Source of the DNA: an uncultured Alistipes sp.
GTDB taxonomy: Bacteria; Bacteroidota; Bacteroidia; Bacteroidales; Rikenellaceae
Direction: 5' to 3'
DNA: 45,209 bases
Assembly: GCA_944321205.1 (NCBI GenBank)
Contig: CALUKK010000074.1
Span: forward strand, 1 to 45,209
The notes below the pieces were generated by a model. That model was not told the DNA's origin and did no database searches. It saw only the letters and a program-made list of their open reading frames with translations. Shown piece after piece: positions 17,522 to 25,062 of the stretch (position 1 is the stretch's first letter; every line of letters begins with the position of its first letter). Position numbers and translations under genes: made by a program.

Positions 17522-18451
17522 TCAGATTCCGTCGCCGTTTTCGAAGCTCGAAACCGAGGCCCGGCCCTGTACGACCCGGGAGTGCGGGGGCAGGTCGGAG
17601 GTCTGCCAGACGTTGCCGCCGATCACCGAATCGTGACCGATGCGCACGCGGCCCAGGATCGACGAGTTGGAATAGACCACCACCCGATCCTCTAAAATCG
17701 GATGACGCGGTTCCCGGAGGATGTTGCCCGCGGCGTCGAACTTGAAGCTCTTGGCTCCGAGCGTCACACCTTGATAAAGCCGTACGTGGTTGCCGATGAT
17801 GCAGGTTTCGCCGATGACGACGCCCGTACCGTGGTCGATGCTGAAGTAGTCGCCGATTTCGGCTCCGGGGTGGATGTCGATTCCCGTGTTCGAGTGTGCC
17901 ATTTCGGTAAGCATCCGCGGCAGAATCGGAACCTGCAGCTGCCACAGGGCATGGGCCAGCCGGTAGTGGGTCATGGCCACCAGGGCCGGATAGCAGAGAA
18001 TCACCTCCTCGAAACTTGCCGCGGCGGGATCACCGTCGAAAACGGCCTTGACGTCGGTTCCGAGGCGTCGCCGCAGTTCGGGCAGGCTCTCGAGCAGCTG
18101 CCGGGCCGTTTCCGCACCGAACTCTTCGGCTGTGACACCGCCTGCGGCGGGGTTGTTGCGATGGAAGGTGACATGGGCCCGGGCACTTTGTCGGGCCACG
18201 ATCCCGGCCAGTTCCGCCAGCAGGATCTCGACGGGTTGCGGATCGAAATATCCGGCAAAGACCACCGAACGAAAGAGCTCTACGGCCTGTTTCAGGGCTT
18301 CGGGTTCGATGCCTGCGGCCGGCAGTCGGGGGATGTGCGGATCCTCCGCGGTCAGTCGGTCGGCGATCTGCCGCAACGGCAGATTGTAGAGATAGGTGAT
18401 CAGATGGGGGAGGTGGAAAGCCTCCCGCCGGGAGTCGCAGGGCGTTTTCAT
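17522..18451 (-). CDS. cysE: Serine O-acetyltransferase
   Basis: The 309-residue protein has an alpha-helical N-terminal half and a C-terminal left-handed beta-helix of hexapeptide repeats (about 190-290). The active-site region GIDIHPGAEIGDYFSIDHGTG contains the His and Asp expected to bind serine and acetyl-CoA, and VVIGETCIIGNHVRLYQGV continues the helix. It makes O-acetylserine for the cysteine synthase encoded just upstream. Its ATG overlaps the cysK stop codon as ATGA, so the two are translationally coupled and both fall under the cysteine leader attenuator. The protein is longer than E. coli CysE at its N-terminus and resembles the EpsC-type enzymes. Confidence 0.94.
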   Translation of the reverse strand: MKTPCDSRREAFHLPHLITYLYNLPLRQIADRLTAEDPHIPRLPAAGIEPEALKQAVELFRSVVFAGYFDPQPVEILLAELAGIVARQSARAHVTFHRNNPAAGGVTAEEFGAETARQLLESLPELRRRLGTDVKAVFDGDPAAASFEEVILCYPALVAMTHYRLAHALWQLQVPILPRMLTEMAHSNTGIDIHPGAEIGDYFSIDHGTGVVIGETCIIGNHVRLYQGVTLGAKSFKFDAAGNILREPRHPILEDRVVVYSNSSILGRVRIGHDSVIGGNVWQTSDLPPHSRVVQGRASVSSFENGDGI

Positions 18452-19407
18452 GGGCGGAAATCGGTTTTGTATGTGTCGAAGTCGTAGAGGGCGGTGGAGA
18501 GGTAGCGTTCGCCGGTGTCGGACAGCAGCACGACGATCGTTTTGCCGCGCAGGGCCTCCTCACGGGCCAGGTGCAGGGCGGCCCAGGCCGCCGCACCCGA
18601 GGAGATTCCGACGAGCAAACCTTCGTGTGATGCCAGCAGCCGGGCCGTGGCGATGGCCTGTTCGTCGGAGACCGTCAGAACACGGTCCACAACCTGCGGA
18701 TCGTAGTTCCCGGGGATGAAGCCGGCGCCGATTCCCTGGATCCGGTGGGGTCCCGGGACTCCGCCCGACAGCACCGGGGAAGAGGCCGGCTCCACGGCCA
18801 CGATCTCCACGGCAGGATTCAACTCCTTGAGTCGTCGTCCCGTTCCGCTGACCGTGCCTCCGGTTCCGACCCCGGCCACGAAGAGATCGATCCGGCCCTG
18901 GGTGTCGTGCCAGATTTCATCGCCGGTCGTGTGGTAGTGCCGTTCGGGATTGTCGCGGTTTTCGAACTGCTGGAGGATGATCGATCCGGGGATCTGCGTG
19001 CGGAGCTCCTCGGCCCGGGCGATGGCTCCGGCCATGCCTTCGGACCCCGGAGTCAGAACCACCCGGGCCCCGTAGGCCGCCACCAGACGCCGTCGTTCGA
19101 TGCTCATGGTCTCGGGCATGGTGAGGATCAGCCGATAGCCTTTCAGTGCGCTGACGAGGGCCAGGCCGACTCCGGTGTTTCCGCTTGTAGGTTCGATGAT
19201 TGTGGCGCCGGGGCGCAGATCGCCGCGGGCTTCGGCCGCCTCGACCATGGCCAGAGCCACCCGGTCCTTGACGCTGCCCGCGGGATTGAACGATTCGACC
19301 TTCGCCACGACGCGGGCCACGGCTCCGGCTTCATGACTCAGCCGTCCCAGCTCCACCAGCGGGGTGTGGCCGATGAGTTGCAGGATGTTTTTTGCGATAG
19401 TTTCCAT
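18448..19407 (-). CDS. cysK: Cysteine synthase A (O-acetylserine sulfhydrylase)
   Basis: The protein is 319 residues from ATG 19407. Fold-type II PLP enzyme signatures are clear: the PLP lysine in NPAGSVKDRVAL (Lys47), PTSGNTGVGLA for phosphate/substrate binding, and GVGTGGTVSGTGRRLKE. It condenses O-acetylserine with sulfide to cysteine in the cytoplasm. A longer in-frame extension to 19674 is not protein-like here; it overlaps the regulatory leader in the same frame. The start lies 18 nt after the T8 tract of an intrinsic terminator, so expression depends on read-through. Confidence 0.95.
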   Translation of the reverse strand: METIAKNILQLIGHTPLVELGRLSHEAGAVARVVAKVESFNPAGSVKDRVALAMVEAAEARGDLRPGATIIEPTSGNTGVGLALVSALKGYRLILTMPETMSIERRRLVAAYGARVVLTPGSEGMAGAIARAEELRTQIPGSIILQQFENRDNPERHYHTTGDEIWHDTQGRIDLFVAGVGTGGTVSGTGRRLKELNPAVEIVAVEPASSPVLSGGVPGPHRIQGIGAGFIPGNYDPQVVDRVLTVSDEQAIATARLLASHEGLLVGISSGAAAWAALHLAREEALRGKTIVVLLSDTGERYLSTALYDFDTYKTDFRP

Positions 19408-19425
19408 AGGATTCGGTTTGAAACG

Positions 19426-19455
19426 AAAAAAAAGGCAACAGAGTTTTCTGCTGCC
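19426..19455 (-). terminator. Attenuator terminator in the cysK leader
   Basis: On the minus strand, GGCAGCAGA pairs with TCTGTTGCC (nine pairs, one G-U) around an AAAC loop and is followed immediately by eight T. It sits upstream of cysK rather than after a gene. The 5' arm is perfectly complementary over eight bases to CTGCTGCC at 19531-19524 inside the leader peptide frame, an alternative antiterminator pairing. The Cys-codon stretch (CTGTTGTC) could also pair with the same arm using two G-U pairs. Confidence 0.88.
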
Positions 19456-19493
19456 TTTTCCGTATGCATAAAATGGTGATTTGAAATGCGGAT

Positions 19494-19598
19494 TCAGAAT
19501 TTTTGCGGTTCCGACCCGGGCCCGGCAGCAGGCACGACGCGGCGGCAACGACAACAGATCGCTGCACAACAACACATCGTATGAACTCTTGCGGACAT
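19494..19598 (-). CDS. Cysteine-rich leader peptide (34 aa) of the cysK-cysE attenuator
   Basis: A 34-codon frame from ATG 19598 to TGA 19494 encodes a peptide containing MCCCAAICCRCRR: six Cys codons within ten positions (9, 10, 11, 15, 16, 18), five of them TGT. Translation may also start at Met8, directly before the Cys run. It lies about 45 nt after a TATATTTG promoter element and is followed by a terminator hairpin before cysK. By the logic of classical attenuation, ribosomes stalled at Cys codons when Cys-tRNA is scarce would favour the antiterminator and allow cysK-cysE transcription. The peptide itself probably has no other role. The mechanism is inferred; the codon run and hairpins are seen. 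Confidence 0.85.
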   Translation of the reverse strand: MSARVHTMCCCAAICCRCRRVVPAAGPGSEPQKF

Positions 19599-19643
19599 GG
19601 TCTTTTTCAGAAAAGCGGCCTTTTCGGGCGCGTCGGTCGGGGA

Positions 19644-19651
19644 CAAATATA
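19644..19651 (-). promoter_or_regulatory. Promoter -7 element of the cys leader-cysK-cysE operon (TATATTTG)
   Basis: The minus strand reads TATATTTG, matching TAnnTTTG, about 45 nt before the leader peptide ATG. This is a sensible position for a leader transcript. Confidence 0.6.
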
Positions 19652-19701
19652 GGGATTCGGAACGGAAAAAACAAATGCGAAGCCCCGAAAGCTCGGAAAA
19701 A

Positions 19702-20280
19702 TCATCCGGAGGCACTTCCCGATCCGCTTTTCCGGTGGTGTTGCCACCACTCCGAGACCCACATGACCCCCAGCCCGATACCCACACCGACGACCGACTC
19801 CAGGAAGCGCAGCAGACAGTTGATGGCCGGTGGCAGCCGGGGATTCTCCTGCGAGATGAGCAGGATGACGATCAGCGTGATGGTGGCGATGTGTCCGTTG
19901 ACGTAGATTCCCAGCAGCATGCTGACGATTTCGAGCAGAAAGATCGTCAGCAGCATGCCCAGGACGGAGAAGTGCCAGAAGCTCAGATAGGTGAAGGCGA
20001 TCAGGGCCCCGATGAACGTTCCCAGCACACGCATCCAGCCCACCGGGAGCGACTGTTTGAGACCGGGTTTCTGCAGTACGACGACCACCGACGTGCAGGC
20101 CAGCATGGCGCCCATCCAGTGCGATGCGGCGTGAAAGGGTCCCGTGACGTAGGTGCCGACCAGATAGGCCAGCAGAACCCCTATGCACGTTGCGGCGGCG
20201 TTGACGGGTTGAAGACGTGCGGCCATTCGGCGCAGCAGCGGCGGATTGCGGATTGGGGTGTTTGCAGGATCCGGGTTCAT
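19702..20280 (-). CDS. FUSC-like / aromatic-acid-exporter-type membrane protein
   Basis: The protein is 192 residues from ATG 20280, with about five membrane segments. The pattern (AATCIGVLLAYLVGTYV; SHWMGAMLACTSVVVVLQ; GTFIGALIAFTYLSF; MLLGIYVNGHIATITLIVIL) resembles the N-terminal membrane domain of FUSC/ArAE proteins, including the conserved tract with a Gx3GA motif. It lacks the large cytoplasmic domain of full-length exporters, but short versions are common in Bacteroidota. Function is unknown. It ends about 50 bp before the cys leader promoter on the same strand and is divergent from the NhaC gene. Confidence 0.75.
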   Translation of the reverse strand: MNPDPANTPIRNPPLLRRMAARLQPVNAAATCIGVLLAYLVGTYVTGPFHAASHWMGAMLACTSVVVVLQKPGLKQSLPVGWMRVLGTFIGALIAFTYLSFWHFSVLGMLLTIFLLEIVSMLLGIYVNGHIATITLIVILLISQENPRLPPAINCLLRFLESVVGVGIGLGVMWVSEWWQHHRKSGSGSASG

Positions 20281-20378
20281 GATCCGCTCACCCTGCAAGA
20301 AACGGGCCGCAATGTTTTCGGACGGGAGTGGAGAGTACGGTTCGCAGACGCGAAGTTGACGATCCGGATTTTTTGCCC

Positions 20379-20386
20379 TATTTTTG
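20379..20386 (+). promoter_or_regulatory. Promoter -7 element for the NhaC-like gene (TATTTTTG)
   Basis: TATTTTTG matches TAnnTTTG, 27 bp before ATG 20414. A TTGA at 20356 may serve as a weak -33 box. Confidence 0.55.
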
Positions 20387-20413
20387 CAGCCGGACAGTAT
20401 TGACGAAGCATCC

Positions 20414-21703
20414 ATGTCATCGACCTCAAAATCCCGGGGCGGACTTTTCGCCCTTACACCGCTGGCGGTTTTTCTGGCCAGCTACCTGCTTGTGTCGCTG
20501 CTGGCGGGGGATTTCTACAAGATGCCCATCTCCGTGGCCTTTGTCGCTGCGTCGGTCTACGCCGTGGCGATCATGCGACGCATGCCCTTTTCGGAGCGGA
20601 TCGGGCACTTTTCGCGCGGAGCCTCGGATCCGAACGTGCTGTTGATGATCTGGATCTTCGTGCTGGCCGGGGCCTTTGCCGAATCGGCCCGCGCCATGGG
20701 AGCCGTGGATGCCACGGTGGCTCTGACGCTGCATCTGCTGCCGGGCAGTCTGCTGCCGGCCGGGCTTTTTCTGGCGGCCTGTTTCGTCTCCTTCTCCATC
20801 GGGACGTCGGTCGGAACGGTCGTGGCGCTGGTTCCCGTGGCGGCGGGTCTGGCCGAACAGACGGGGCTTGATGCGGCGTGGTTGACGGCCATTGTGGTCG
20901 GCGGCGCCTTCTTCGGGGACAACCTGTCGTTCATCTCCGACACGACGATCGCCGCAACCCGGACCCAGGAGTGCGATCTGCGGGACAAGTTCCGGGTCAA
21001 CGTGCGGATCGTGGCTCCGGCGGCCCTGCTGACCCTGGGGATCTACCTCGTGACGGGCAGCGTTACGGCGGTTCCGACCGATCCCGAACCGATTGCCTGG
21101 ATCCGGGTCGTGCCCTATCTGCTGGTGCTGGTGACGGCCGTCGCGGGGATGAACGTCATGAAGGTGCTTCTGCTGGGCATCGTCGCCTCGGGGGTGATCG
21201 GTCTGGCGTCGGGGAGCTTCAGCCTGATGGAGTGGTGCGGCGGCATGGGCCGGGGAATCACGGGCATGGGCGAGTTGATCATCATAACGCTGCTGGCCGG
21301 GGGTCTGCTGGAGATGATCCGTCTGAACGGCGGTATCGACTATATCATCGAGCGGATGACCCGACATATTTCGGGACGTCGGGGTGCCGAAGGGACGATC
21401 GCGGGGCTGGTCTGCCTGGCGAATCTCTGCACGGCCAACAACACCATTGCCATTCTGACGGTGGGACCCATCGCCCGCCGCATTGCCGATCGTTTCGGGG
21501 TGAGCCGGCGACGCAGTGCGAGTCTTCTCGACACGTTTTCGTGTTTTACGCAGGGGTTGCTTCCCTACGGGGCGCAGATGCTCATGGCGGCGGGTCTTGC
21601 CGCGCTGTCGCCGCTGGAGATCATGCGCAATCTCTACTATCCGGTGGTTCTCGGCGTGGTGACGCTGCTGGCCATCGTGTGTCGTTACCCGCGCCGGGTG
21701 TGA
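20414..21703 (+). CDS. Na+/H+ antiporter, NhaC family
   Basis: The 429-residue polytopic protein has the NhaC-family signatures FSIGTSVGTVVALVPVAAGL, GGAFFGDNLSFISDTTIAAT and CLANLCTANNTIAILTVGPI. The GDNLSFISDTT motif is the strongly conserved centre of NhaC and related antiporters. It would exchange Na+ for protons at the inner membrane. ATG 20414 is chosen because it follows the promoter by 27 bp and the upstream TTG start would lie inside it. The gene is not in an evident operon. Confidence 0.9.
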   Translation: MSSTSKSRGGLFALTPLAVFLASYLLVSLLAGDFYKMPISVAFVAASVYAVAIMRRMPFSERIGHFSRGASDPNVLLMIWIFVLAGAFAESARAMGAVDATVALTLHLLPGSLLPAGLFLAACFVSFSIGTSVGTVVALVPVAAGLAEQTGLDAAWLTAIVVGGAFFGDNLSFISDTTIAATRTQECDLRDKFRVNVRIVAPAALLTLGIYLVTGSVTAVPTDPEPIAWIRVVPYLLVLVTAVAGMNVMKVLLLGIVASGVIGLASGSFSLMEWCGGMGRGITGMGELIIITLLAGGLLEMIRLNGGIDYIIERMTRHISGRRGAEGTIAGLVCLANLCTANNTIAILTVGPIARRIADRFGVSRRRSASLLDTFSCFTQGLLPYGAQMLMAAGLAALSPLEIMRNLYYPVVLGVVTLLAIVCRYPRRV

Positions 21704-23628: not shown

Positions 23629-25062
23629 TCAGGGGAAGCGGGGACGTTCCAGCCGGATCTCGATATGCTGTCTGCCGGTCAGATCGGCCGGAATGAAGTG
23701 CTTGTCGGACTTCTTGCCGTTGATGCGGAACTCCACGATGCTGTATCCCTGTCCCTTCAGATCGATATCCAGAAGCATGTTGCCGTATTTGAGCCCCTTG
23801 ATCGACAGGCGTCCGATTCCCTTCGGCAGATAGGGCGTGAAGGACATGCCCTCCAGCTGGGGCCGCAATCCGCAGATGCCGTAGCAGACCATCGACATGT
23901 ATCCCGTTGCGGACCAGGTTTGGTGACGGCGCGAGTACCATTTCGCCCTGCCGGACTGGTTGCCGCCTTCGGGTTTGCCGGTTTCGGGATCGAAAATCTC
24001 GTAGAAATTGTAGTTGCCCTTGTCCTCATCCAGGGCCAGGGATGCCATGGCGTAGAATTCATGCTCGAAGATTCCCCAGTCGCCGGTCACAAGCGCCGCA
24101 TTGGCATAGAAGGCATTCACGAAGGGCCAGATCAGCCGGTTGTGCCGTCCGGGTTTCTCTTTCGAGAAGCGTTTGAAGATGGGGGTGATGGAGGGAATTC
24201 CGTACTGGGTGGTTTCGTTGCGGATGACGGTGAAGTGTCCCTCCTGAGGCGTGATCACACCCGAAAGGATGGCAAAGGCGATCCCCAGCGCCTCCTGATG
24301 CCGGTGGGTATTGCCCTGTTCGTCGATGACGTAGAAGAGCTGTCCCCGGGGATTGTAGAAGTTCTTGCGGATGTTGTTTCTCAACGTGCGGGCCTTGTCC
24401 GCGAATTCGGCGTTTTCGGTGCCGTGCAGGACCGTGTGCATCAGGTTCAGGTCGCGGTATGCCATGTAGTAGGCACAGTTCGTACTCAGACACTTTATGC
24501 CGTGCGTGTTGTGGGCCATGACGCTGGAGGAGTTCGGCTTGGAGACATCGTAGATGGGCTCCTCGAAGGCCGATACGCCGTCGTTGAAGACCGACGAACC
24601 GGTGAACAGTCCGTAATTCTTGTCGTAGGCCTGGGTCTCCAGTTCCCGGATGGTGTTGACGCCGCAGGTGTAGGCCTCCCTGAGGAAGGCCGTGTCACGG
24701 GTCAGCAGATAGTGGTACAGGGCGCCCTGCACCCAGATGATCTTGTCCCAATACTGGTGTCCGATGGTTTGTCGGTTGTTGGTGACGTACCAGAGTGAAC
24801 GCTCCATCACCTGGGGGATGAACAGATCCATTCCGTTCCAGGTGTTGATGGCCACGTCGCGGGTCCACTCGCCGCCATAGTCGGCGCCGGCCGCCAGAAT
24901 GCTGTCCCGCACGTTGTAGAGGACGGTTCTGTGAGCCAGTTCCCAGGCTTCATTGACTTTCGGGTTGTCCGTTTCGAAGGTGTTGTCGCCGGAATCGGTG
25001 CGATGACCGCAGGCCGCGAAGGTGAGGCCTGCCAGGGCGGCAAGGATACAGATTCTCTTCAT
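23629..25062 (-). CDS. (alpha/alpha)6-barrel glycoside hydrolase lipoprotein, MGH1/GH63-like
   Basis: The 477-residue protein has a lipoprotein signal (LAGLTFAACGHR, Cys18). The body resembles six-hairpin glycosidases: GGEWTRDVAINTWNGMDLF, TRDTAFLREAY, SRRHQTWSATGYMSMVCYGI and a short beta C-terminal domain. Candidate acids are in GGEWTRD and IFDPETGKPEGG, but the family cannot be fixed to a single GH number from sequence alone. Its ATG overlaps the stop of the upstream transporter gene (TAATG), so it is translationally coupled. The lipid anchor suggests it acts outside the cytoplasm, on a substrate whose product is imported by that transporter. Confidence 0.78.
   Translation of the reverse strand: MKRICILAALAGLTFAACGHRTDSGDNTFETDNPKVNEAWELAHRTVLYNVRDSILAAGADYGGEWTRDVAINTWNGMDLFIPQVMERSLWYVTNNRQTIGHQYWDKIIWVQGALYHYLLTRDTAFLREAYTCGVNTIRELETQAYDKNYGLFTGSSVFNDGVSAFEEPIYDVSKPNSSSVMAHNTHGIKCLSTNCAYYMAYRDLNLMHTVLHGTENAEFADKARTLRNNIRKNFYNPRGQLFYVIDEQGNTHRHQEALGIAFAILSGVITPQEGHFTVIRNETTQYGIPSITPIFKRFSKEKPGRHNRLIWPFVNAFYANAALVTGDWGIFEHEFYAMASLALDEDKGNYNFYEIFDPETGKPEGGNQSGRAKWYSRRHQTWSATGYMSMVCYGICGLRPQLEGMSFTPYLPKGIGRLSIKGLKYGNMLLDIDLKGQGYSIVEFRINGKKSDKHFIPADLTGRQHIEIRLERPRFP

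Follow-up and report, generated by a model that had tools for sequence, protein, structure and literature searches.

A predicted cysteine-responsive transcription attenuator upstream of cysK-cysE in Alistipes

The cysK-cysE operon of an uncultured Alistipes sp. is preceded by what appears to be a cysteine-responsive, ribosome-mediated transcription attenuator, a reading to which we give a probability of about 0.84. Most likely, cysK-cysE would be transcribed only when cysteine is scarce. The locus lies in a stretch of 45,209 nucleotides that was analyzed at its full length and is referred to below as the window. A first-pass annotation had proposed a cysteine attenuator before cysK-cysE, and comparison of the DNA with that of related genomes supports this proposal.

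Layout of the leader locus in the window

Read along the minus strand, the elements follow each other in the order TTTG, TATATTTG, 34-codon ORF, terminator hairpin with T8, cysK, and cysE. The features are as follows.

19672..19675, minus strand: -33-like TTTG element, 20 nt upstream of TATATTTG (sequence)
19644..19651, minus strand: -7-like element TATATTTG, with TANNTTTG in orthologous loci (sequence)
19494..19598, minus strand: leader ORF, 34 codons plus stop, ATG at 19598 and TGA at 19494 (sequence)
19566..19574, minus strand: Cys codons 9-11, TGT TGT TGT (translation)
19551..19556, minus strand: Cys codons 15-16, TGT TGT (translation)
19545..19547, minus strand: Cys codon 18, TGC (translation)
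19560..19572, minus strand: candidate segment 1, UUGUUGUGCAGCG, pairing with 19518-19530 (RNAalifold consensus of 13 leaders)
19559..19580, minus strand: 5' arms of the alternative hairpin that spans the Cys codons (window MFE fold)
19524..19531, minus strand: segment 2, CTGCTGCC, antiterminator 5' strand (leader codons 23-25)
19448..19455, minus strand: segment 3, GGCAGCAG, antiterminator 3' strand and terminator 5' arm (sequence)
19434..19441, minus strand: segment 4, CTGTTGCC, terminator 3' arm (sequence, terminator scan)
19426..19461, minus strand: predicted intrinsic terminator, stem-loop 19461-19428 overlapping the T8 tail 19433-19426
18448..19407, minus strand: cysK, O-acetylserine sulfhydrylase (TIGR01139, 431.9 bits, above the cut-off of 350.95; NCBIfam)
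17522..18451, minus strand: cysE, serine O-acetyltransferase (TIGR01172, E=1.8e-47, below its cut-off; NCBIfam)

The promoter-like element noted earlier before the leader is borne out by TATATTTG at 19651-19644 together with TTTG at 19675-19672, which we take to be the -33-like element of the Bacteroidota promoter layout. A TANNTTTG box lies at -211 to -310 from cysK in 14/14 orthologous loci, and TAnnTTTG is given as the -7 consensus in the available text of PMC9723704. A simple sigma-70 scan of the window found no promoter, as expected because Bacteroidota promoters are outside the coverage of that scan. The gene directly upstream of the leader promoter (19702-20415, minus strand) encodes a FUSC-like membrane protein (PF13515), a relative of which occupies the same place in only some of the orthologous loci.

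The leader ATG lies 45 nt from the predicted -7 box, with an alternative in-frame ATG at 19577, and the predicted peptide is MSARVHTMCCCAAICCRCRRVVPAAGPGSEPQKF. Its Cys residues fall at codons 9, 10, 11, 15, 16, and 18, so that the 34-codon leader with six Cys in ten codons is exactly as first described. No other 10-codon stretch in the six frames of the 45-kb window holds six Cys, and 40 copies of the window simulated with a first-order Markov model yielded none. TGT makes up five of the six leader Cys codons versus 9/33 in six neighboring genes, a small sample. The 9-bp terminator hairpin with T8 was also confirmed by sequence; its core, GGCAGCAGA/TCTGTTGCC, includes one G-U pair, and the terminator scan counts 15 pairs. 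T8 ends 18 nt before the cysK ATG (19407), and the cysK stop and cysE start share ATGA (18451-18448), both precisely as annotated. The terminator 5' arm GGCAGCAG (19455-19448) had been called perfectly complementary to a segment of the leader, and indeed it is so to CTGCTGCC (19531-19524). This duplex of segments 2 and 3 was calculated at -19.6 kcal/mol and was matched by 0/500 dinucleotide shuffles.

A search of the window against Rfam 15 gave 0 matches at the gathering threshold. A relaxed Rfam search returned STnc40 and CsrC, which scored below threshold and are not credible.

We infer leader translation, ribosome stalling, terminator read-through, and the response to cysteine as follows. 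RNA polymerase would start at the TATATTTG promoter, and a ribosome would trail it on the short leader ORF. With Cys-tRNA plentiful, the ribosome would clear the Cys codons, and segment 2 would be hidden by the ribosome and/or by upstream pairing; segments 3 and 4 would then pair, and transcription would stop 18 nt short of cysK. With Cys-tRNA scarce, the ribosome would halt on the Cys codons, its leading edge just before segment 2. Segment 2 would be free to pair with segment 3, no terminator would form, and cysK-cysE would be transcribed.

Conservation and folding of the Alistipes leaders

The genus sample comprised 180 genomes, and this cysK was found at E<=1e-90 in 14 of them; the other 166 were without it at that threshold, some having a relative of ~44% identity. 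Alignments of 13 leaders omit L051, whose upstream region is identical to that of L021. In all 14 loci the leader carries four to six Cys codons and a hairpin is predicted at the matching place before cysK, L050 requiring a relaxed T filter. Orthologous leaders with the hairpin and without Cys codons, which the first-pass annotation had named as evidence against its reading, numbered 0/14, an outcome in its favor. The upstream comparison that had also been suggested found the Cys run and the hairpin in 14/14 and segment 2, CTGCTGCC, identical in 12/13 distinct leaders, one of them (L055) in a shifted reading frame. Segment 3, GGCAGCAG, is identical in 10/13 distinct leaders, and in seven of these ten the terminator 3' arm is the wobble-pairing CTGTTGCC. 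L055 keeps CTGCTGCCGG in its shifted frame and there reads CLLP, not PAAG. The wobble-pairing CTGTTGCC in 7/10 and the L055 frame shift point to selection at the RNA level.

Some leaders depart from the common form. ALF replaces the first Cys run in L055, codon 15 is Ser in L049, and Cys codons 15-16 are replaced by Ala-Asn in L050 and L005. The latter two have lost the second Cys pair (CCCAAIANRC) and have a poor T-tract (TTTC), and each is possibly a decaying attenuator. Same-strand cysE is found just downstream of cysK in 13/14 loci; the exception is L055, where cysE is divergent and lies upstream of the leader and cysK. Two loci carry short tandem repeats, which are GAGAGGTCC-like and between promoter and leader in L049, and AAGCCGGTCGG-like and upstream of the promoter in L003.

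R1, a covariance model of the leader core, was built from 13 of the 14 loci and retrieves these by construction. Among the other 166 genus genomes it gave two weak matches only, neither with a Cys-run leader, and in 393 genomes of the order it gave the window and one weak match under strict filters, with which weak matches are lost. The weak matches (L070, L071, and L072) are without a Cys-run leader and represent coding DNA or chance. Genome G023, one of the 14, and the Alistipes sp. An66 record (Rikenellaceae, L073) have the same leader. The 44%-identical cysK-like paralogs L008, L010, L011, and L012 have strong upstream terminators, and the scan showed no Cys ORF there.

The duplex of segments 2 and 3 (2:3) exceeded 95% of dinucleotide shuffles in 10/13 distinct leaders; those below this mark were L050 (31/500 shuffles), L006 (41/500), and L022 (110/500). 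In the alignment of the 13 Alistipes leaders (A1), the 2:3 helix is near-invariant, with 94.2% of cells paired, and displays conservation only, without covariation. In 13/13 distinct leaders the best duplex begins 9-13 nt past the final Cys codon of the run, the L022 duplex not being significant and the L055 run being counted as ending before its fourth Cys, which adjoins segment 2. This is about where the leading edge of a stalled ribosome would lie, just before segment 2. For the window, folds as far as the terminator loop with a ribosome stalled at Cys codons 9, 10, and 11 gave 0.4, 0.0, and 3.5 antiterminator pairs, respectively, and a stall at codon 15, 16, or 18 gave 9.7.

Folding models suggest that the protector hairpin, formed by segments 1 and 2 (1:2), is weak or ambiguous in the Alistipes form. 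RNAalifold predicts a 1:2 hairpin joining the Cys-codon region to segment 2, and the segment 1 pairing (19560-19572/19518-19530) has 93.7% of cells paired and three pairs with a double change, but in single-sequence ensembles this pairing is lost once segment 3 is present. The alternative hairpin over the Cys codons pairs 19573-19580 with 19534-19541 and 19559-19565 with 19545-19551. As long as segment 3 is still missing, segment 2 forms four or more pairs with upstream sequence in 8/13 leaders. When the RNA is folded as far as the terminator loop, 11/13 leaders prefer 2:3, with a stalled ribosome or with none. When the whole terminator is present, pairing of segments 3 and 4 (3:4) beats 2:3 in 13/13, stalled or not, so that switching must be kinetic, and its outcome would be set during RNA synthesis. 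The classical attenuation layout proposed in the first-pass annotation stands as regards the Cys leader, the terminator, and the 2:3 pairing, and is ambiguous as regards the protector. In the trp model too, basal read-through results when the ribosome leaves the stop codon ahead of the synthesis of segment 4, according to the available text of PMC1183508.

A second leader family in Cryptobacteroides

The named-genome sample held 80 cysK loci, of which 78 were used in the counts, L073 and L119 being counted apart. Besides An66, the only one of the 80 with a Cys-run leader and terminator was that of Candidatus Cryptobacteroides onthequi (Bacteroidales incertae sedis), whose cysK-cysE leader is MKNSMIISMSACCCCCFAPVSDWYGKPAL. 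From the genus of this species 200 genomes were searched, 67 of them with cysK at E<=1e-100; 70 of the 74 matches were surveyed, and L193 and L119 are one locus. The Cryptobacteroides leaders are unalignable with those of Alistipes. At 19/70 loci an ORF starting with ATG holds three Cys within six codons, and 18 of these loci belong to the 48 where cysE follows directly; some others (L207, L220, L237, L244, and L249) have variants with CxCC, CC, or a non-ATG start. Cys ORF and terminator were associated across the 70 loci (18 with both, 5 with the ORF only, 3 with the terminator only, and 44 with neither; Fisher p=1.4e-9, which is optimistic given that the genomes are related). Terminators that the scan missed are visible by eye at L229, L234, and L217. 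By these scans, 23 of the 48 cysK-cysE loci had neither leader nor terminator.

The duplex of segments 2 and 3 exceeded 95% of shuffles in 11/19 Cryptobacteroides leaders and fell below that mark in 8/19. For the analysis of covariation we used an alignment (A4) of 21 leaders with rows picked by eye and an 8-pair helix written from L193; it omits L197, L252, and L262, which have Cys ORFs and no segment 2 visible by eye, and keeps L250. The A4 antiterminator had 91.0% of cells paired versus 83.4% in shuffles, 16 double-changed cells versus 6.7, and a covariation score of 0.436 versus 0.290, each with 0/500 shuffles as high. Two stricter measures, less inflated by relatedness, were within the range of the shuffles, with 5 double-changed pairs versus 3.8 (104/500) and 14 further pair types versus 12.4 (64/500). 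Controls in which the helix was slid along A4 gave 15-47% paired, with no more than 2 double-changed pairs and 7 types. Compensatory changes are seen in the matching strands GACT:AGTC in L193, GATT:AATC in L219, AATT:AATT in L195, and GGAT:ATCC in L244. In L193, AGTC is the terminator loop, where the terminator itself requires no pairing.

For these leaders RNAalifold predicted both a protector hairpin and a terminator, and the 5' arm of the predicted protector includes the last Cys codon in four-Cys leaders. Double changes affected 11/16 of the RNAalifold pairs, with 4/8 in the protector (one sequence each) and 7/8 in the terminator. Folded with no ribosome, 15/19 leaders had at most 2 antiterminator pairs, the exceptions being L193, L194, L207, and L249. 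Placing a ribosome on the final Cys codon of the run made the antiterminator form in 19/19 (4.5 to 15.9 pairs); segment 2 was defined generously for these stall folds, as a zone of 32 nt, and an upstream TTG or GTG was the start of some transcripts. When the transcript was folded at full length, stalling at the last Cys tipped the fold to 2:3 in 7/19 (L194, L197, L211, L220, L242, L244, and L248); L249 shifted the opposite way, and the hairpin scored for L219 did not form. The Cryptobacteroides form, as predicted by these folds, is a textbook three-state trp-type layout.

R2, a covariance model of the second family built from 20 leaders, gave matches at E<=0.5 in 38/200 genomes. Of its 23 matches at E<=0.011, coordinates place 21 before cysK; of the remaining two, one sits at a contig end and the other at a cysK remnant (L333). 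Eleven R2 loci were inspected closely, and the weaker ones, except L346, were without a nearby cysK. At L333 (G666:C169, reverse strand, ~603-800), all that remains of cysK after the leader MCCCCTFPAGWYGFARA and its downstream segment is a short internal piece, as if the leader had outlived the operon. A TGTTGC hexamer repeat is found in a Cryptobacteroides genome at G656:C15 (~24227-24271).

Alternatives, distribution, and known systems

We consider it improbable that the terminator is regulated not through the ribosome but by another sensor acting at the hairpin over the Cys codons, be it a protein, small RNA, or riboswitch of an unknown class. Such a sensor would fit the conservation of this hairpin in the RNA (19534-19580; 91.6% of cells paired over 13 leaders) and the CATACGATGTGTTGTTGTGC stretch that is unchanged in 11/13 leaders, but the window is without an Rfam family at gathering score, having two sub-threshold matches only, and a second genus with leaders of its own combines a Cys run with matching antiterminator logic before the same gene. 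An arrest peptide, in which the nascent chain would stall the ribosome on another signal such as redox, metal, or a drug, is less probable still. It could explain why 11/14 leaders begin their core with HTMCCCAA, and poly-Cys could perhaps chelate or oxidize; however, variously placed Cys runs are nearly all that L054, L022, L055, and the Cryptobacteroides leaders have in common, and PAAG is dictated by the RNA segment, as shown by L055, which reads that segment in another frame. The least probable account regards the hairpin as constitutive or as terminating an upstream transcript, and the Cys-run ORF as arisen by chance. It draws on the same-strand FUSC-like ORF that ends at 19702, upstream of the leader, and on the many spurious frames in this DNA, but a promoter box sits between that gene and the leader, the upstream neighbor is divergent in L021, L051, and L055, leaving no same-strand gene there for the hairpin to terminate, the window has no second stretch with six Cys in ten codons, and leader and hairpin occur together in 14/14 loci.

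Returning to the attenuator, Cys-run leaders are concentrated in the two genera. Strict Cys ORFs were found at 13/14 Alistipes loci (L022 misses), at 19/70 Cryptobacteroides loci, and at 1/194 loci elsewhere, namely 0/26 fetched loci from other genera of the family, 1/90 in the order sample (90 of 128 matches surveyed), and 0/78 in other named genomes. Cys is the commonest run-forming residue in both leader-bearing sets and among the rarest in the other sets. Antisense Cys ORFs occurred at 12/278 loci (Alistipes 0/14, Cryptobacteroides 3/70, family 2/26, order 4/90, and named genomes 3/78), which puts the chance level for such ORFs at a few percent. That antisense Cys ORFs are not rare, and that some A4 measures fall within the shuffles, lessens our confidence in the attenuator.

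A tree of 200 CysK proteins, built quickly with SH-aLRT support only and rooted at the midpoint, grouped the Alistipes set with L253 and L254, apart from the leader-bearing Cryptobacteroides copies. L253 and L254 are Cryptobacteroides cysK loci with a divergent cysE ~100-130 nt away and no leader seen; L254 is long-branched. On the cysK tree, a sign test of leader against operon gave a median p of 0.5 with few pairs. The two leader families probably have separate origins. A broader proposal seems doubtful to us, namely that cysteine attenuators of the Bacteroidales arose at least twice, in different cysK lineages and each with a cysK-cysE operon, and, jointly with this, that the Alistipes form is a reduced one without a working protector, in which an untranslated leader reads through by default. 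Its probability is lowered by the eight of 194 other loci that have cysE downstream of cysK and no leader.

Attenuators of the trp/his type in Enterobacteria have a leader ORF rich in codons for the product and an antiterminator that competes with an intrinsic terminator. The present candidates resemble them in having leader codons for the product of the operon, competition between antiterminator and terminator, and regulatory codons just upstream of segment 2. They differ in that the amino acid is Cys and the phylum is another, and in the 1:2 hairpin, which is weak in the Alistipes form and predicted in the Cryptobacteroides form. Canestrari et al. (2020) reportedly described mycobacterial polycysteine ORFs as leaderless, cysteine-responsive attenuators; in contrast to those leaderless ORFs, 45 nt separate the predicted -7 box from the leader ATG here.

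In Actinobacteria, cys operons have Cys-codon leader ORFs with no conserved terminator hairpin, and Rho has been suggested, according to the available text of PMC1262725. The likeness lies in the Cys-codon runs that precede cysteine genes (PMC1262725), and the difference in the intrinsic terminator predicted here. These actinobacterial peptides had been named as the closest concept and are indeed among the relatives, but a leader of the Rhodobacterales is also close. This leader, uORFC-8-2, is a predicted ORF upstream of cysS with tandem Cys codons and a terminator stem followed by a U run, as described in the available text of PMC8632094. It shares the predicted Cys-codon ORF and the terminator with U run (PMC8632094), whereas it precedes cysS in alphaproteobacteria and usually has two Cys codons at positions 14-15, with cysK and cysE lying downstream in our case.

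A genome-wide study of 2010 stated that leader peptides were known in Proteobacteria and Actinobacteria only, before adding Firmicutes (available text of PMC2965389). Leader peptides have been suggested for amino-acid operons in Flavobacterium psychrophilum (PMC9723704) and for long 5' UTRs in Bacteroides thetaiotaomicron (PMC7366714). Those candidates are from the same phylum, but no cysteine or cysK leader is named in the available text of either source. The accessible text of the open-licence literature searched reports no cysteine attenuator in Bacteroidota, which is an absence and not a proof. Ribosome-mediated attenuation and cysteine leaders are known in other groups; a cysK-cysE attenuator in Bacteroidota would be new with respect to the literature searched.

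If the attenuator is real, a self-contained RNA switch that reads the charging of tRNA-Cys would control cysK-cysE without a dedicated regulator, and transcription-translation coupling in these gut bacteria would be tight enough for attenuation. The reduced form, if true, would turn the operon on under cysteine shortage and also under general translation failure. The two leader families provide ready-made covariance models.
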